Origin: Frankiales bacterium
GTDB lineage: Bacteria > Actinomycetota > Actinomycetes > JAFAQI01
Assembly: GCA_025980465.1 (NCBI GenBank)
Contig: JAICXJ010000013.1
Coordinates: forward strand, 1 to 64,000
Reading direction: 5' to 3'
DNA: 64,000 bases
Below are positions 55,067-62,507 of the stretch, one piece after another. The notes under the pieces are model-generated. The model was not told the origin of the DNA, did not search any database, and saw only the letters and a list, made by a program, of their open reading frames with translations. How positions within the stretch are numbered: position 1 is the stretch's first letter; each line of letters opens with the position of its first letter. The translations under genes and the position numbers were made by a program.

Positions 55067-56056
55067 TCAGCAATCGTCGCGGCCCTCACCACCTGCCGGT
55101 TCGCCGCGGCGTCGCGAACCGGGACCGGGGCGGGTGCCGAGCTCGGCGTGCGCCGTACCGCGGAGCGACCATTCCTGTTCGACTCGCCAGCGCCCGCGGA
55201 AGGTCTCGACTACGGCGTGGACGTCTGCGGTCTCGCTGTTGGTGCAGACGGCACCCGCACCGTCCGGATCGGTGTAGTCGAGGGTGACGCATCGATGGTC
55301 CGGCTGCGTGACGGTGGCGGTGAGCCGGCGCGCCCCGACGACGCCGCGGACCCGCCAGGTCGGTGACCCGAGCCGGGCCCGGAACAGCGGTGCCGCAAGC
55401 AGCGGGTTGGCCGGCCAGTCCGGCTGGCCTCGACGCCGTAGCTGCACGAACGACAGCGGCGGGATTCGCCGCATTCCGGGCCGGCGGCTGACCGCAACCA
55501 CGATCTCGAGAATGGTGTCGTCGTCGAGGTCGGCGTGCAGCCAGGCCCAACGCTGCGCGTTGCCATGACCGTAGATGTGCGCGACGTTGCCGACCCCGTC
55601 GAAGGGCAGGACCAGGCAGCCACTCCTGACGAAGCCGGCGAACGTTGCGCCCGGCGCGACCACGACGTGCGCGGAAGGCAGCGCTTCGCGCTCCCACATC
55701 GACCGCGGCAGCGTCCAGATCGGCGGCGCGTCGCTGGTGTAGGTGAGATCCCACTCGACGTGTTCGGACCTGCCACATAGCCGGCCCGGGCCGGACGTGG
55801 CAGCCGAACCCACCAGCCAGGTCGACGGCGCGTTCACAACCGTCGCCCGATCCGGCCCGAAGCGGGTGAGCTCCGGCGCTCCACCGGCCGGGTAATGGGC
55901 GATCCAGCCGTGGCTGTAGGGCTCGCCCTCGGTAGGCGCGACCCGCTCGTGATGGATCCAGATCCCGTCACCGGTACGCCGGTCCGTCGCAGTGGCGTAC
56001 CAGACCTCGAGGCGGCCACCCTGACCTCGCCATCGCGGAGCCGCCGGATCCATCAT
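55067..56056 (-). CDS. Hypothetical protein, AttH/tocopherol-cyclase-like beta-barrel (tentative)
   Basis: GIWIHHERVAPTEGEPYSHGWIAHYP, HVEWDLTYTSDAPPIW, GVGNVAHIYGHGNAQRWAWLHADL. Confidence 0.7.
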   Translation of the reverse strand: MMDPAAPRWRGQGGRLEVWYATATDRRTGDGIWIHHERVAPTEGEPYSHGWIAHYPAGGAPELTRFGPDRATVVNAPSTWLVGSAATSGPGRLCGRSEHVEWDLTYTSDAPPIWTLPRSMWEREALPSAHVVVAPGATFAGFVRSGCLVLPFDGVGNVAHIYGHGNAQRWAWLHADLDDDTILEIVVAVSRRPGMRRIPPLSFVQLRRRGQPDWPANPLLAAPLFRARLGSPTWRVRGVVGARRLTATVTQPDHRCVTLDYTDPDGAGAVCTNSETADVHAVVETFRGRWRVEQEWSLRGTAHAELGTRPGPGSRRRGEPAGGEGRDDC

Positions 56057-56081
56057 GCGCAGAGTATCTACTTCGGGGGAC

Positions 56082-57695
56082 CTACTTCGGGTGGTGAAGC
56101 GAGCCGCTGCCCGGCGGCGGCGTCTGGTCGGTGTGCACGTTGATCCCCACCTGATGCGCGTAGCGCACGATGTGGCGACTGGCCTGCTCGGCCAACGCGG
56201 CGATGGTCAGCGACGGGTTGACGCACAGCGACGTCGGCACCGACGAGCCGTCCGTCACGTACAACCCTGGATGGCCACGTAGCTGATGGGTCGGCTCGCA
56301 GGCCGAGATCGCGGGATCATCTCCGATCCGGCACGAGCTGAGTGGATGTGCCGTCAGTGCATTCGGCGTCGCGCTCCAGTCCAGATGGGTACCGATCCGG
56401 TCCTTCTCGATGATCGACTTGATCGCCCGGTCGGAGCGGGCCCACGCCTTGCGAGTGCGCGCAGTCGGGTGGTAGGTGAGCAGCGACAGTGCGGCCGCGG
56501 AGTCAACCCGGATGAAGGCACCGGTCGGTGGGGGCGTGCCGAACACGCCCTCGTTGCCGTCCTCCACCATCGCGAGCAGCGTCAGCCACGACCGCCAGCG
56601 GTCGGTGAGCCGCTCCTTGCCGGGTCCGAACCAGTCGCCGCCCGGGCGCGCCTCGGACAGGATGTTCGTGATGGTGGGAAAGTAGATCTGCTGAAGCCCG
56701 TAACGGTCGCCGGCGCGGCGCTTCGGGTCGAGATAGTCATACGTCATCGAACCGATCGGCTTGCCGATCGGGAACGCCTCGTAGGCCACGCCGGGCTTGC
56801 GCTCGAGCTTCAACACCTCGTGCAGCTTGCGCTCGTCGAGGACGGCCATCGATACCCGGTCGCCGTTGGGCGAGAAGTAGCGGCCGACGGCACGTGGTAG
56901 GCCGCCGAGGGTGACCGCAGATCGTTGCAGGATCGCCGGCGTCGCCACTGCGCCTGCCGCGACGATCACGACCTTCGCCTCGATCACCCCGGCACCCGTG
57001 GTCAGCCGGTAGTCAGTTGCGTCGACGTTCGTGTAGCTGACGGCGTAGGAGTAACCGGGCGTTACTGCCGGGCTGATCAGCTGTACCTCGTGCAGCGGCC
57101 GGATGGCTGCGCCGTGCGCCTGTGCCGCCGGCAGGTAGTTGAGCAACATCGACCGCTTGGCGCCGAAGCGACAGCCGTTCAGCATCCAGTTGCAGTTCGT
57201 GCACTCGCGAAGGTTGACCGCGAGCGGCACCGGGTTGCAGGTATGGCCGGCGTGATGGCAGGCCGCCGCCCATACCCCGCCGGCGTACGGCACGTCATCC
57301 CAGGTCTGCTCAGCGACCGGCAGCGTGTGCTCAACCACGTCGTACCAGCGATCCAACAGCTCGCGCGTGAAGGACTTCGGCCAGATCCGACGTCCGCTCG
57401 CGTCGCGTCGGCGAAAGACGAACGATGGCGCGCGGAGCGCCGCAGCGAAGTAGACGACACTCGAGCCGCCGACGCAGTTGCCGGCGACGATGCTGACCCC
57501 GTTCGCGGTGATGTAGTCGACGATGCGGGTGTAGGTCCCGATCTGCAGCGAGTGCTCGAAGTCCTGGGTCTCCAGCCACGGCCCGCGTTCGAGGACGACG
57601 ACTTTGGCGCCCGCCGCTGCGAGTCGGTACGCCGGGATCGCGCCGCCGGGGCCCGACCCGATGACCAGGACGTCGGTCGTTTCGATGACACTCAC
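56082..57695 (-). CDS. GMC oxidoreductase (cholesterol oxidase/FAD-dehydrogenase-like)
   Basis: VLVIGSGPGGAIPAYRLAAAGAKVVVLERG; NCVGGSSVVY; TAHPLSSCRIGDDPA; YVTDGSSVPTSLCVNPSLTIAALAEQ. Confidence 0.92.
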   Translation of the reverse strand: MSVIETTDVLVIGSGPGGAIPAYRLAAAGAKVVVLERGPWLETQDFEHSLQIGTYTRIVDYITANGVSIVAGNCVGGSSVVYFAAALRAPSFVFRRRDASGRRIWPKSFTRELLDRWYDVVEHTLPVAEQTWDDVPYAGGVWAAACHHAGHTCNPVPLAVNLRECTNCNWMLNGCRFGAKRSMLLNYLPAAQAHGAAIRPLHEVQLISPAVTPGYSYAVSYTNVDATDYRLTTGAGVIEAKVVIVAAGAVATPAILQRSAVTLGGLPRAVGRYFSPNGDRVSMAVLDERKLHEVLKLERKPGVAYEAFPIGKPIGSMTYDYLDPKRRAGDRYGLQQIYFPTITNILSEARPGGDWFGPGKERLTDRWRSWLTLLAMVEDGNEGVFGTPPPTGAFIRVDSAAALSLLTYHPTARTRKAWARSDRAIKSIIEKDRIGTHLDWSATPNALTAHPLSSCRIGDDPAISACEPTHQLRGHPGLYVTDGSSVPTSLCVNPSLTIAALAEQASRHIVRYAHQVGINVHTDQTPPPGSGSLHHPK

Positions 57696-58396
57696 CGCGG
57701 GTTACCGCCCGGCGTCGTGTGGGGATGGCGACGAGCGAGCTTGCGGCGGTAGGAGAAGTCCGGAAACCGCCAGAGGCCGTCGCGGTCGGGCTTCGGAAAC
57801 CCGATCGCCTTCAGTCCGGGATGACCGTCGCGGACCGCCTTGGCCGTCGGGAGGTAGCCGGCGGTGTGGTAGGCGAGGAACACCAGACCGGCGAATGCGA
57901 ACCAGAACAGCTGTTCGTCGCCGGATTCCTTCTTGCCGTTCAGCAGATGGTCGAGCATCGCCTTGCGATGGTGGTAGGAGAGCCCGACGAACGGCGGCAG
58001 CGTCGGATCGACGCTCGTCTGGTGTGACGCGATGTAAGCGACGGCTGCGGCATCGAGCGCGGCGACGAATGCCGGCAGCGCCGGCGCGACGCCGACCGGG
58101 CCGAAGCGCATGAACGGCAGCGCGCCCGCCTGAACCGCTCCGGCCTGATGCGAGACGCCCGCGACCGCGTAGTCGGCGGCGTACCGCTTGTGCCCTGGGA
58201 TCAGGGTGTCGGCGAACGCCTCGATCGTCATCGTCAGCGGGTCCGACGTCAGCCCGTCCGGCCCGGCGCTCGGGCGGGCGTCCGCGGCATCGGAATTCGG
58301 CGTGACTGCGTCGACCAGCGACATCCCAGTCGCCCCGATCGAGGCGAGCCACAACAGCTGTCGTCGCGTCAGCGACACAGCGTCCTCACCGGGCAC
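57692..58396 (-). CDS. DUF5987-like protein with Tat signal
   Basis: LTRRQLLWLASIGATGMSLVDA twin-arginine signal; IEAFADTLIPG start resembling gluconate 2-dehydrogenase subunit 3; ATGA overlap with GMC gene. Confidence 0.78.
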   Translation of the reverse strand: MPGEDAVSLTRRQLLWLASIGATGMSLVDAVTPNSDAADARPSAGPDGLTSDPLTMTIEAFADTLIPGHKRYAADYAVAGVSHQAGAVQAGALPFMRFGPVGVAPALPAFVAALDAAAVAYIASHQTSVDPTLPPFVGLSYHHRKAMLDHLLNGKKESGDEQLFWFAFAGLVFLAYHTAGYLPTAKAVRDGHPGLKAIGFPKPDRDGLWRFPDFSYRRKLARRHPHTTPGGNPR

Positions 58397-58408
58397 CGCG
58401 TCATCGCA

Positions 58409-58960
58409 TCAGCAGGGGATCGGCGCCGGCAGCACCAGGGTTGCTCCGCCGCCTGATCCGGAGCCGCCGTACTTGCGGATTTCGTGGGCCACGGGTGGGC
58501 TCAGCGTGGCGATGGCGGCCGCCGCCTGCGCCGCGCCTACCGGCTGGCCGGCGATCCGGAAGTGGCGGAGGATCGCGCCGCCGATGCCCGTCTTGAGGTC
58601 CCACCAGTAGCTACCGTCCCACTGCACGAGGGGGCGCATGCCGCGGTCGATCCTGATCCGCCAGTGGTCCCGCTGCCAGTACTGGCACTTCCCCGCAACA
58701 GCGAACCGTGCCGGCTCGGCCAGCAGGAACCGGATCGCGCCGCCGTTGTCGATCGTGATGTCACGCTTGTTGTAAACGACGCACAGCGGGTCGTCCGTCA
58801 GCGTCAGCGGGTTGGGCGCGATGCCGTTTCCGTAGTGGTGGACGACTTCGCACCGGAAGGTCGGCGACTGGTACGGCGCGAGACCCGGGGCGGCCGACGC
58901 GCCGTTCAGGCTCGTGGCGAGCACGCAGCTCAGCGCAACGAGTACGGCGAGGCGGCGCAC
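58409..58960 (-). CDS. Hypothetical secreted protein upstream of DUF5987/GMC
   Basis: Signal peptide VRRLAVLVALSCVLATSLNGASA; four Cys in the predicted mature part including the C-terminal residue. Confidence 0.65.
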   Translation of the reverse strand: MRRLAVLVALSCVLATSLNGASAAPGLAPYQSPTFRCEVVHHYGNGIAPNPLTLTDDPLCVVYNKRDITIDNGGAIRFLLAEPARFAVAGKCQYWQRDHWRIRIDRGMRPLVQWDGSYWWDLKTGIGGAILRHFRIAGQPVGAAQAAAAIATLSPPVAHEIRKYGGSGSGGGATLVLPAPIPC

Positions 58961-59006: not shown

Positions 59007-62000
59007 TCAGACCGGCTGGGCGGAGCGGGTCGCGGCCTGCTTGGCGAGCGGCGCACTTCCGAGGCGCTCAGCGATCGCGGCGGCCTCAGCAAGGTCGCCG
59101 TCGCGACCGCGGTGGACCAGTGCCCACCCCAGGTTGTACGGCGCGGGCAGGTCTCGGAGCGTGCTGATCACCCGCTCGTAGGTGGCATCAACCTCCGCCG
59201 GTGACACGTCGCCGAGGTCGATGCGGGCCAGGTCTGCCTCGGCTCGCAGTACCGGGGGAATGTGGCCGACCGGGTGGTCGTCGATCACGCCTACCAGATT
59301 GCGCAGGGCGGCGTCGTCTCCCAAAGCGCGTGCCGACCGGGCGGCCAGCGGCCATGCCCACCTGATCGAGTCCTGCCGGATGCCGAGCGCGTCGGCGTGG
59401 GAAACGGCGGCGGTTGCGTGGTGGAGCGCCAGCGCGTGATCACCATCGGCGTGCGCGATCCCGGCCCGTACCCACGCAACGAGCGCTAGGTCCTGCGGGT
59501 CCTCACTGTCGGTGCCGGACTCCACCCGATCCCACGCAGCGCGCGCGGCATTCGCCTCGCCCTGCAGCGCCGCCAGCATCGCGGACAGGCCGGCGACGAA
59601 GTGCAGGCCACCAAGCCCACCGGCCGCTGTTTCCTCGAGCAGGACCCGGGCACGGTCCCATTCACCGACCGTGAGCATCGCCTCGGTGAGGTTGGCCACC
59701 GTGATGGCCACCATCCTCGGCGCCCCCAGGGCCCGTCCGACGTCGAGCGCCTGCTGCGCTGCCGCCATGCCGTAAGCCGGATCGAAACCTGCGACCACAT
59801 CGCAGATATTGCTCAGCGCCCTCGCCTGGGAGAAGCGGTCGCCGGCTCGCTCCGCGAGGCGGGCCGAGTACTCGAAGAGGGCAGCGGCGTGCGCGATTCG
59901 CCCGGACGACGAGTAGGCCAGGCCGGCGTGGGTGAAAACGGCCGAGACATCTGCCTGGTCGAGGCCGAGGGCCTGCGCCAGATCCAGCGCCTCCAGTGCG
60001 AACGTGTCCACCTCGCGCTCACCGGCGAAGGCACGCATGCTGGCAAGTTCGCCCATGGCACGCACCGTGTCGCGGTCCGGCGATTGGCGGAGGACCCCGA
60101 CCGCGGTCTCAAGCGCTTCACATGCCTCCGACACCCGCCCGAGATGTCCAAGGGCCCTACCCATGGTGGTCTGCGCCCGAGCCGCCGCGCGCGGGTTTCC
60201 GGTTGCCTCGTACAACTCCCGCGCCTTCTGGGCAAGGTCGATGGCGCGGTCGAATTGGCCGGCGATGTCCGCCATTTCCGCTGCTTGCTCCCACCAGCTG
60301 CCGGCGTCCGCAAGCCCGGCTTCGACTCCGAGGGTCGCAGCGACGAGGAACGAGTCAGCCGCCGCGGCGGGCGATCCGGCGCGCCTGGCCCGGCGCCCGG
60401 CTCGGCCCGACATCGCGATCGCCTCGCCGCGGATGGTGTCGACGTCCGGGTCGTCAGCCACCGCGGCTAGCGCGTCCCGGTAGTGCCGGGCCACCGCGTC
60501 GGCGACCTCTTCGCCGTCGTCGGCGAAGCTCTCGCGCAGGTGGGCCGCGACGGTGAGATGCCTGGCCTTGCGGTCGCGGCGGGAGAGTGTGTCGTAGGCG
60601 ACCTGCCGGAGCAGGTGCTGAGCGAAGCGGTATGCACCGCGTTCGGGGGACAGCCGGTCCGCCGAGACCTCCAGCACCTCGCGCCGGACCAGGTCGTCCA
60701 GGCCGCGGCGTACGTCGTCCTCGGCGAGGTCTGACACGGCGACCAGGGCTTCGGCCGGGAAGCTGGTGCCGAGCACAGCGGCGTCCGCGACGAGCGCCCG
60801 CACTGGCGGATCGAGCGCGTCGAGCCGCGCGGCGAGCAAGCCGTGCAACGAGTCCGGTACCGACAGCTCGCCGACCTCGCCGACCAATCGGTAGACCCCG
60901 TCGATCGGCTGGACCACGTCGCGGTCCACCAGCGATCGGATCGTCTCGACGGCGAACAGTGGGATGCCCTGCGCGTGCGCGGTGATGGCGGCGCGCGCTG
61001 GCTCGGGCATGCCGGGCACGAGCGATTCGACCAACGCGTCCATCGACGCGGGGTCCAATGGGTCAAGCGCGAGCAGGCTGCGATTGCGGCCGACGCCGAA
61101 TCCGGGCCTGGTTTCGGTGAGCTCGGTGCGGGAGAGGACGAGCACGAAGATCGGCAGGTCGCGCGCCCAATCAACGAGGTGGTCGACGAAGTCGAGCAGT
61201 CCGGCGTCGGCGTGCTGGGCGTCCTCGATCAGCCAGACGACCGGATCCACATCGGCCATCCGCTCGAACAGCAGTCGCCAGCCGGCGAACAGCTCCTCGC
61301 GGGCCAGTGGCGCGCCGGTGTCTCCGGCCACTGGTGCGCCGAGCAACCGGCCGATGCGCACGGCGGCAAACTCCCGCTCACCGGGATTCGGAATCAGCTC
61401 GTTCAGTCCGTCGACGATCTTCCGGGCTGCACCATCGGTCGAATCGTCCTCGGCGATGCCGAGGCGTTGCCTGATCGCCTGCGCCAACGCCCAGAATGCG
61501 ACGCCTTCGCCGTATGACAGGCAGCGGCCGCGATGCCACCACATGGTTCGGGCGAGCCCGTCGATGTGCTTCTCGAACTCCCAGCCCAGCCGAGATTTCC
61601 CGACCCCGGCGGCACCGGTGACGAGGACCAGTCGCGGGGTACGCCGGTCAGCGCCGGCGTGGAAGAGTTCCTTGATCAGCCGCATCTCGGCGTCGCGTCC
61701 GGTGAGCGGCGCCTCCAGCCCGTCGATTCGCTGGTTGCCGCCGACGCCGGCAATGACTCGAGCCGCCCGCCACAGCTGCTCCGGCTCGGCCTTGCCCTTC
61801 AACGTGTGCTCGCCGGCGTCGTCGAAACTCACCGCCGCGGCCGCCAACCGCCGGGATGCGGTGTCGACCAGGACCGTCCCGGGCTGGGCCACCGACTGCA
61901 CCCGCGCGGCGGTGTTCACCGCGTCGCCGGCCACCATGCCCTCTTGCTGCGCCCCCACGGTGACGGCGACCTCACCGGTGACCACACCGGCTCGCGCGGC

Positions 62001-62507
62001 GAGTTCGGTGATCCCGGTCTCGGCGCCGAGTGCGGCGACCGCGTCGACGACATCGAGCGCCGCCCGCACCGCGCGCTCGGCGTCGCCCTCGGCGGCGGTC
62101 GGGGTGCCCCACACGGCCATCACGGCGTCACCGATGAACTTCTCGACGACCCCGCCGTAGCGCGCAATGACCTGCCGGGCTACCTCGAAATAACGAGAAA
62201 GCAGCTCGCGAACCTCCTCCGGGTCACGGGCCTCCGAGATCGGCGTGAAGCCCACCAGGTCGGCGAACAGCACCGAGCAGACTCGGCGTTCCGAGACCGG
62301 AGTCGCCGCTGACGCCGGCGTGCTCGGCGGGGTAACCGTGGCGTTCGGGTCGCCGTTCAGCGGGGTCGCGCATTGACCGCAGAAGCGCTGTCCGGATTCC
62401 GCCGCTGCACCGCAAGCGGGGCACGTGACGGCGAGCGGTGCCGCGCACTGACCGCAGAACCGATTAGCCCCCGGATTTTCGGTGCCGCAGGCGGCGCACG
62501 TCACCAT
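59007..62507 (-). CDS. Class III adenylate/guanylate cyclase-AAA ATPase-TPR protein with double zinc ribbon
   Basis: CAACGTENPGANRFCGQC and CPACGAAAESGQRFCGQC; VCSVLFADLVGFTPISEARDPEEV...GDAVMAVWG; LVTGAAGVGKSRLGWEF; 1166 aa. Confidence 0.92.
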   Translation of the reverse strand: MVTCAACGTENPGANRFCGQCAAPLAVTCPACGAAAESGQRFCGQCATPLNGDPNATVTPPSTPASAATPVSERRVCSVLFADLVGFTPISEARDPEEVRELLSRYFEVARQVIARYGGVVEKFIGDAVMAVWGTPTAAEGDAERAVRAALDVVDAVAALGAETGITELAARAGVVTGEVAVTVGAQQEGMVAGDAVNTAARVQSVAQPGTVLVDTASRRLAAAAVSFDDAGEHTLKGKAEPEQLWRAARVIAGVGGNQRIDGLEAPLTGRDAEMRLIKELFHAGADRRTPRLVLVTGAAGVGKSRLGWEFEKHIDGLARTMWWHRGRCLSYGEGVAFWALAQAIRQRLGIAEDDSTDGAARKIVDGLNELIPNPGEREFAAVRIGRLLGAPVAGDTGAPLAREELFAGWRLLFERMADVDPVVWLIEDAQHADAGLLDFVDHLVDWARDLPIFVLVLSRTELTETRPGFGVGRNRSLLALDPLDPASMDALVESLVPGMPEPARAAITAHAQGIPLFAVETIRSLVDRDVVQPIDGVYRLVGEVGELSVPDSLHGLLAARLDALDPPVRALVADAAVLGTSFPAEALVAVSDLAEDDVRRGLDDLVRREVLEVSADRLSPERGAYRFAQHLLRQVAYDTLSRRDRKARHLTVAAHLRESFADDGEEVADAVARHYRDALAAVADDPDVDTIRGEAIAMSGRAGRRARRAGSPAAAADSFLVAATLGVEAGLADAGSWWEQAAEMADIAGQFDRAIDLAQKARELYEATGNPRAAARAQTTMGRALGHLGRVSEACEALETAVGVLRQSPDRDTVRAMGELASMRAFAGEREVDTFALEALDLAQALGLDQADVSAVFTHAGLAYSSSGRIAHAAALFEYSARLAERAGDRFSQARALSNICDVVAGFDPAYGMAAAQQALDVGRALGAPRMVAITVANLTEAMLTVGEWDRARVLLEETAAGGLGGLHFVAGLSAMLAALQGEANAARAAWDRVESGTDSEDPQDLALVAWVRAGIAHADGDHALALHHATAAVSHADALGIRQDSIRWAWPLAARSARALGDDAALRNLVGVIDDHPVGHIPPVLRAEADLARIDLGDVSPAEVDATYERVISTLRDLPAPYNLGWALVHRGRDGDLAEAAAIAERLGSAPLAKQAATRSAQPV

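Follow-up and report, generated by a model that had tools for sequence, protein, structure and literature searches.

How might a flavin-dependent oxidoreductase without a signal peptide leave the cell, and which of its neighbours would leave with it? This question is raised by four genes at positions 55,067 to 58,960 of a 64,000-nucleotide stretch of DNA from a Frankiales bacterium (contig JAICXJ010000013.1 of assembly GCA_025980465.1; the whole stretch is hereafter referred to as the window). They encode a small secreted protein, a DUF5987 protein with a twin-arginine translocation (Tat) signal, a GMC oxidoreductase and a further protein of 329 amino acids. Comparison with related loci suggests that this is probably an exported flavin oxidoreductase module, in which the GMC protein would be carried out of the cell on the Tat-tagged DUF5987 protein. 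What was observed is the order of the genes and their co-occurrence, the signal motifs, the remote homology and the conservation of motifs.

All four minus-strand open reading frames (ORFs) described in an initial annotation of the window were confirmed (183, 234, 537 and 329 amino acids, in order of transcription). Successive genes are separated by 12 bp, overlap by four bases at the stop and start codons, and are separated by 25 bp. The four-base overlap between DUF5987 and GMC had been recognized in that annotation, but its letters are GTGA in the window, rather than the ATGA given there and found in most relatives. The features considered here are as follows:

58409..58960, minus strand: secreted four-cysteine protein, 183 amino acids, GTG start, Sec-type signal peptide by eye; core of the module
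57692..58396, minus strand: DUF5987 protein, 234 amino acids; putative Tat-tagged small (hitch-hiker) subunit; PF19449, profile-profile match
58286..58396, minus strand: Tat signal region of the DUF5987 protein, MPGEDAVSLTRRQLLWLASIGATGMSLVDA..., read from the sequence
56082..57695, minus strand: GMC oxidoreductase, 537 amino acids, GTG start overlapping the DUF5987 stop; predicted catalytic flavoprotein subunit
57171..57203, minus strand: three-cysteine motif of the GMC protein, Cys165-x2-Cys168-x6-Cys175, at the position of the glucose dehydrogenase 3Fe-4S cysteines
56217..56348, minus strand: active-site region of the GMC protein, His450 (HPLSSC) to Asn493 (VNPSLT), from the alignment and comparison with cholesterol oxidase
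55067..56056, minus strand: CrtC/AttH/tocopherol-cyclase-like protein (weak matches), 329 amino acids; accessory neighbour, not core

A recurrent set of three genes

When the genome collection was scanned with the secreted protein as the seed, homologues turned up at 29 loci, from Streptomyces, Kitasatospora, Actinacidiphila, Allokutzneria, Nocardioides, Planosporangium and metagenome-assembled genomes (MAGs). DUF5987 and GMC genes adjoined the secreted-protein gene in all 29, a recurrence that places the grouping beyond chance. The survey of co-occurrence proposed in the initial annotation thus brought together three of the four genes, and the small secreted protein, suggested there to be a new component, strictly accompanies the other two. 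Searches with the DUF5987 model alone led to the same pairing: a GMC gene lay beside DUF5987 in 35 of 35 distinct full-length loci, mostly with a four-base overlap. DUF5987 is rare, with a single copy in the genome containing the window and scores above the cut-off in 14 of 396 genomes of the class, three of 298 genomes of the phylum and 21 of 298 genomes sampled from one genus (Streptomyces, to judge from named records of the contigs). The profile of the secreted protein, applied to the 396 class genomes, matched only in the three genomes with a Tat-tagged pair, one of them the genome containing the window, and in one further copy that is truncated at the end of its contig. In an all-against-all comparison of neighbourhoods, the 329-amino-acid gene was the sole further recurrent gene, the other recurrent ORFs apparently being antisense shadows. 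The module consists of three genes (secreted four-cysteine protein, Tat-tagged DUF5987 and GMC), not four. In one genome, fragments of a second DUF5987 gene (G722:C2:115095-115631) are spread over different reading frames, about 27 kb away from the intact gene, and apparently represent a broken duplicate.

The secreted protein has no Pfam or NCBIfam model and no convincing match among PDB sequences or folds; as far as these three resources go, it is an undescribed family. The signal peptide and four cysteines originally noted were recovered: the mature window protein has exactly four cysteines. Among 30 sequences of the family, Cys60, Cys92 and Cys183 are invariant, as are the DHW and WDG.Y..D motifs, and Cys37 is present in 28. 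The structure model had a predicted local distance difference test score (pLDDT) of 77.6 overall and of about 90 in most of the segment 91-160; it comprises one helix and three long strands, and no PDB match bettered an E-value of 0.02 and a template modelling score of 0.24. A homologue encoded in a MAG labelled Deltaproteobacteria (L055:2287-3285) has a long, cysteine-rich C-terminal extension, giving 24 cysteines in the whole protein.

The DUF5987 protein and the cysteine motif of the GMC protein

The DUF5987 protein matched PF19449 with an E-value of 5e-64 (215.8 bits, against a curated cut-off of 27). Its N-terminus, MPGEDAVSLTRRQLLWLASIGATGMSL, was read as a twin-arginine signal with the motif LTRRQLLWL; Tat assignments were based on the motif and a hydrophobic stretch, with N-termini inspected by eye. 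The RRQLLWL and IEAFADTLIPG segments reported in the initial annotation are both present. Tat-type signals were also found on the DUF5987 proteins of relatives with the secreted protein, and on none of those from the enediyne clusters described below. The alignment of 32 DUF5987 sequences, with signals removed, was compared by hhalign with that of 32 Gluconate_2-dh3 sequences, yielding a probability of 95.3% (E-value 2.1e-8). The match spans most of the length and opens with TLEAFADTiIPG aligned with the corresponding small-subunit motif, and the controls, three with shuffled columns and one with the profile reversed, did not reach a probability of 1%. Remote homology of DUF5987 to the Tat hitch-hiker small subunit of the gluconate, glucose and fructose FAD-dehydrogenases is therefore well supported by profile comparison, and with it the idea that DUF5987 would serve export. 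In the glucose dehydrogenase of Burkholderia, this small subunit is a hitch-hiker that the GMC catalytic subunit needs for its secretion through the Tat pathway (PMC9727119). The carrier role first proposed for DUF5987 agrees with the remote homology, the Tat signal and the unsigned GMC protein, with export and complex formation being predicted from sequence. We found no paper naming DUF5987 in the open-access literature, and no match to PDB sequences, whether by single sequence or by profile. Elsewhere in the genome containing the window, two true Gluconate_2-dh3 small subunits (G000:C70:87668-88048 and G000:C27:20075-20569) adjoin GMC genes with the motifs CIYRGFCLQGC and CNDCGQCSDYGC; the latter has four cysteines and may hold a different cluster.

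The GMC protein matched GMC_oxred_N (3e-23) and GMC_oxred_C (1e-14) in Pfam. Its start directly precedes the flavin adenine dinucleotide (FAD) motif, bearing out the earlier statement that it has no signal of its own. In a profile search, the nearest solved structures were cholesterol oxidases (E-value 1e-33), followed by glucose dehydrogenase (8e-20). In the alignment of GMC proteins, His450 and Asn493 do not vary, and they line up with the equivalent cholesterol oxidase motifs. The window protein also contains the motif CTNCNWMLNGC (Cys165-x2-Cys168-x6-Cys175), the outer cysteines of which are present in 16 of 16 sequences. The position of the middle cysteine differs: it is +3 in the window type and in the enediyne type, and +6 in the deep exported relatives (L033, L034, L077 and L078), which have CVNAKWCHTGC or similar, with the spacing C-x5-C-x3-C; the motif was not found by pattern in the GMC protein of a further locus (L080). 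The CIYRGFCLQGC motif mentioned above aligns with CCGNNNCMPIC of the solved glucose dehydrogenase, a segment in the region of its 3Fe-4S ligands. The span of 11 residues equals that of the canonical motif, so the middle cysteine of the window type has moved by three residues and the outer two have been kept. This conservation points to a likely iron-sulfur relay on the three-cysteine motif. In glucose dehydrogenase, Cys213 is placed beside the 3Fe-4S ligand cysteines, and the GMC subunit contains FAD and a 3Fe-4S cluster, the first acceptor, from which electrons pass to a three-haem subunit (PMC9727119). The initial annotation was right that CXXCH haem motifs are absent, as none was found in any of the four protein families; its suggestion of a novel acceptor or oxygen overlooked the conserved cysteines at the 3Fe-4S position.

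Relatives in nine-membered enediyne clusters

A search of annotated plasmid proteins matched the C-1027 producer Streptomyces globisporus (plasmid NZ_CP013739.1, L082:19408-21650), in which DUF5987 (WP_029181884) and GMC (WP_010056312) genes lie between P450/regulator genes and an enediyne-cluster thioesterase gene, accompanied by DUF1702, polyketide synthase (PKS) and SgcE6 genes. We take the two proteins to be E8 and E9 of the nine-membered enediyne cassette; no paper naming them was found in the open-access literature. No characterization of SgcE8/E9, NcsE8/E9 or KedE8/E9 was found in the open-access literature (subscription papers were not covered). An initial assignment of this group to the anthraquinone-fused enediynes was abandoned in view of matches to E6/E7-type genes and to the C-1027 record.

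Of the 35 DUF5987 loci from the unseeded searches, 28 have no Tat signal and seven have one. The seven include L127, the signal of which was assigned by eye on the basis of RRRLLVGLTAAVAAL at L073, apparently the same contig. Enediyne cassette genes accompanied all 28 untagged loci (an E11 homologue in 28 of 28, PKS in most), none of the seven tagged loci and not the window. The secreted protein showed the opposite distribution, being present at six of the seven tagged loci and at none of the 28 untagged loci (Fisher's test, 5e-6, calculated with 27 untagged loci; the final count is 28).

In the phylogenetic trees, the enediyne GMC proteins formed one clade with a support value of 100. The deep exported clade branched outside both the enediyne and the other exported GMC proteins, a placement that carries a warning of long-branch effects. 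The nesting of the enediyne pair inside the exported clade, obtained with FastTree and IQ-TREE, was not retained, as the exported C-x2-C type could still be monophyletic according to the approximately unbiased (AU) test (p 0.30); for this reason, no direction of change between the exported and enediyne pairs is claimed. Kinship with the enediyne pair, as suggested by these comparisons, and the link of DUF5987 to the small-subunit superfamily go beyond the initial annotation, the observations of which stood and the interpretation of which stood in part. The enediyne DUF5987/GMC pair presumably has a cytoplasmic biosynthetic role.

Alternative explanations and comparison with known enzymes

If the module is exported as proposed, the GMC protein would take up FAD, and probably an iron-sulfur cluster held by the three-cysteine motif, as it folds in the cytoplasm, and would bind DUF5987. 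The pair would then leave through the Tat pathway on the DUF5987 signal, as do the bacterial glucose, fructose and gluconate FAD-dehydrogenases, and would oxidize an alcohol-type substrate outside the cell. The secreted four-cysteine protein would be exported separately, probably by Sec, and could then work with the other two, whether as a third subunit, as an anchor or as an adaptor. It would occupy the position that a cytochrome c subunit has in known relatives, and it need not carry electrons.

Several results weigh against this scheme. An earlier hhalign comparison, in which 11 small subunits from actinobacteria were used, gave a weak match (probability 1.2%, E-value 0.046); the rise to 95.3% on removal of the signals and use of 32 sequences on each side indicates that the result depends on alignment depth. 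DUF5987 falls short of the Pfam threshold for the small-subunit family PF13618 (Gluconate_2-dh3), with weak, sub-threshold direct matches for two of 32 members (best 0.054). The structure model of DUF5987, built from 16 sequences, was poor (pLDDT 61, no PDB match, meaningless Foldseek matches). The canonical C-x5-C-x3-C spacing is replaced in the window by C-x2-C-x6-C. The surroundings encode neither a cytochrome nor another acceptor, and no cytochrome recurs in module neighbourhoods. One Tat-tagged locus (L033) lacks the secreted protein, and the contrast between tagged and untagged loci is close to a single evolutionary event, because all untagged loci belong to one clade.

The lack of a recurrent cytochrome and the non-canonical spacing would also fit an oxygen-using exported oxidase of the cholesterol oxidase type, the nearest in solved structure, in which the cysteines would be structural and no acceptor protein would be needed. 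We consider this possible, albeit less likely: two of the cysteines are invariant across the aligned family, the deep relatives have exactly C-x5-C-x3-C, and these cysteines are absent from cholesterol oxidase at the aligned place. The window GMC protein scored 90 bits with the NCBIfam cholesterol oxidase model (NF058674), against an equivalog cut-off of 850, and cholesterol oxidase is not known to have a small-subunit partner. It is considerably less likely that DUF5987 is exported alone, with the GMC protein remaining in the cytoplasm and the conserved pair reflecting regulation or shared metabolism. Such an arrangement would accord with the untagged DUF5987 proteins of the enediyne clusters, the role of which cannot be export, and GMC export is itself a prediction; but the stop/start overlap is kept in Tat-tagged loci, DUF5987 is remotely homologous to a hitch-hiker subunit, and a non-exported enzyme complex would account for the untagged pair.

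Action on sterols or steroids seems similarly doubtful. A thiolase of the lipid-transfer protein type (PRK07855, 664 bits), a short-chain dehydrogenase/reductase (SDR) and a MaoC-DUF35 protein, all of which would fit the breakdown of lipids or of steroid side chains, are encoded beside the module in the window, and cholesterol oxidases are, again, the closest solved structures. These genes recur at one other module locus only, in a relative from the same family, and are absent from the rest, one of which lies among unrelated genes, such as those for gas vesicles and allantoicase. A sterol as the substrate is therefore a weak conjecture, and the steroid link drawn in the initial annotation is not supported. 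The same is true of the AttH-like gene as a core part: the 329-amino-acid protein is an accessory neighbour, encoded near 16 of the 29 module loci (13 strong matches, three at 26-28% identity) and in 31 of 296 class genomes, most of them without the module. No Pfam or NCBIfam family and no signal peptide were found for the window protein. Weak Tocopherol_cycl matches in five of 16 relatives (best E-value 0.0017) fit the AttH-like label in fold, through what we take to be a superfamily link, and the window protein itself had no such match. A 1166-amino-acid protein also encoded in the window (59007-62507, minus strand) has, by eye, a zinc-ribbon-like N-terminus, a cyclase-like domain and an ATPase/tetratricopeptide repeat-like regulator region; it is not common to other module loci.

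The export module remains the preferred reading, and the proposal that it works like the gluconate and glucose dehydrogenase export pair is well supported by the comparisons above. We would advance more tentatively the broader idea of an undescribed class of exported flavo-iron-sulfur dehydrogenases, in which a secreted four-cysteine protein of unmatched fold replaces cytochrome c, the enediyne pair arose by loss of export, and the altered iron-sulfur spacing is common to both. DUF5987, a Pfam family of unknown function, would gain a testable role, that of the small subunit in a GMC enzyme composed of two subunits, and an unannotated secreted family is now tied to a putative exported redox enzyme, mainly in actinomycetes, raising the question of which electron acceptor serves in place of a cytochrome. 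The clusters housing the untagged pair make antitumour antibiotics, and the two enediyne proteins are predicted to form one complex with an iron-sulfur site, that is, a two-subunit, possibly iron-sulfur, flavoenzyme.

The enediyne pair resembles that of the window in gene order, four-base overlap, sequence (about 45% and 54% identity) and C-x2-C-x6-C motif; it differs in having neither Tat signal nor secreted protein and in lying among PKS, E6, P450, thioesterase and E11 genes. Cholesterol oxidase (PDB 4rek and others) shares the FAD-binding and His/Asn active-site motifs of the GMC protein, but has no three-cysteine motif at the aligned place. The FAD-dependent glucose, gluconate and fructose dehydrogenases (FADGDH, GADH and FDH; Burkholderia FADGDH, PDB 6a2u; FDH, PDB 7w2j) likewise combine an unsigned GMC protein with an adjacent, Tat-tagged and remotely homologous small subunit and a three-cysteine motif at the 3Fe-4S place. 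The module is not filed among them, because a cytochrome subunit and canonical iron-sulfur spacing were looked for and neither was found. In place of the multihaem cytochrome c subunit it has the small secreted four-cysteine protein, and it is set apart by a small subunit outside the PF13618 thresholds, the C-x2-C-x6-C arrangement and a GMC protein closer to cholesterol oxidase.

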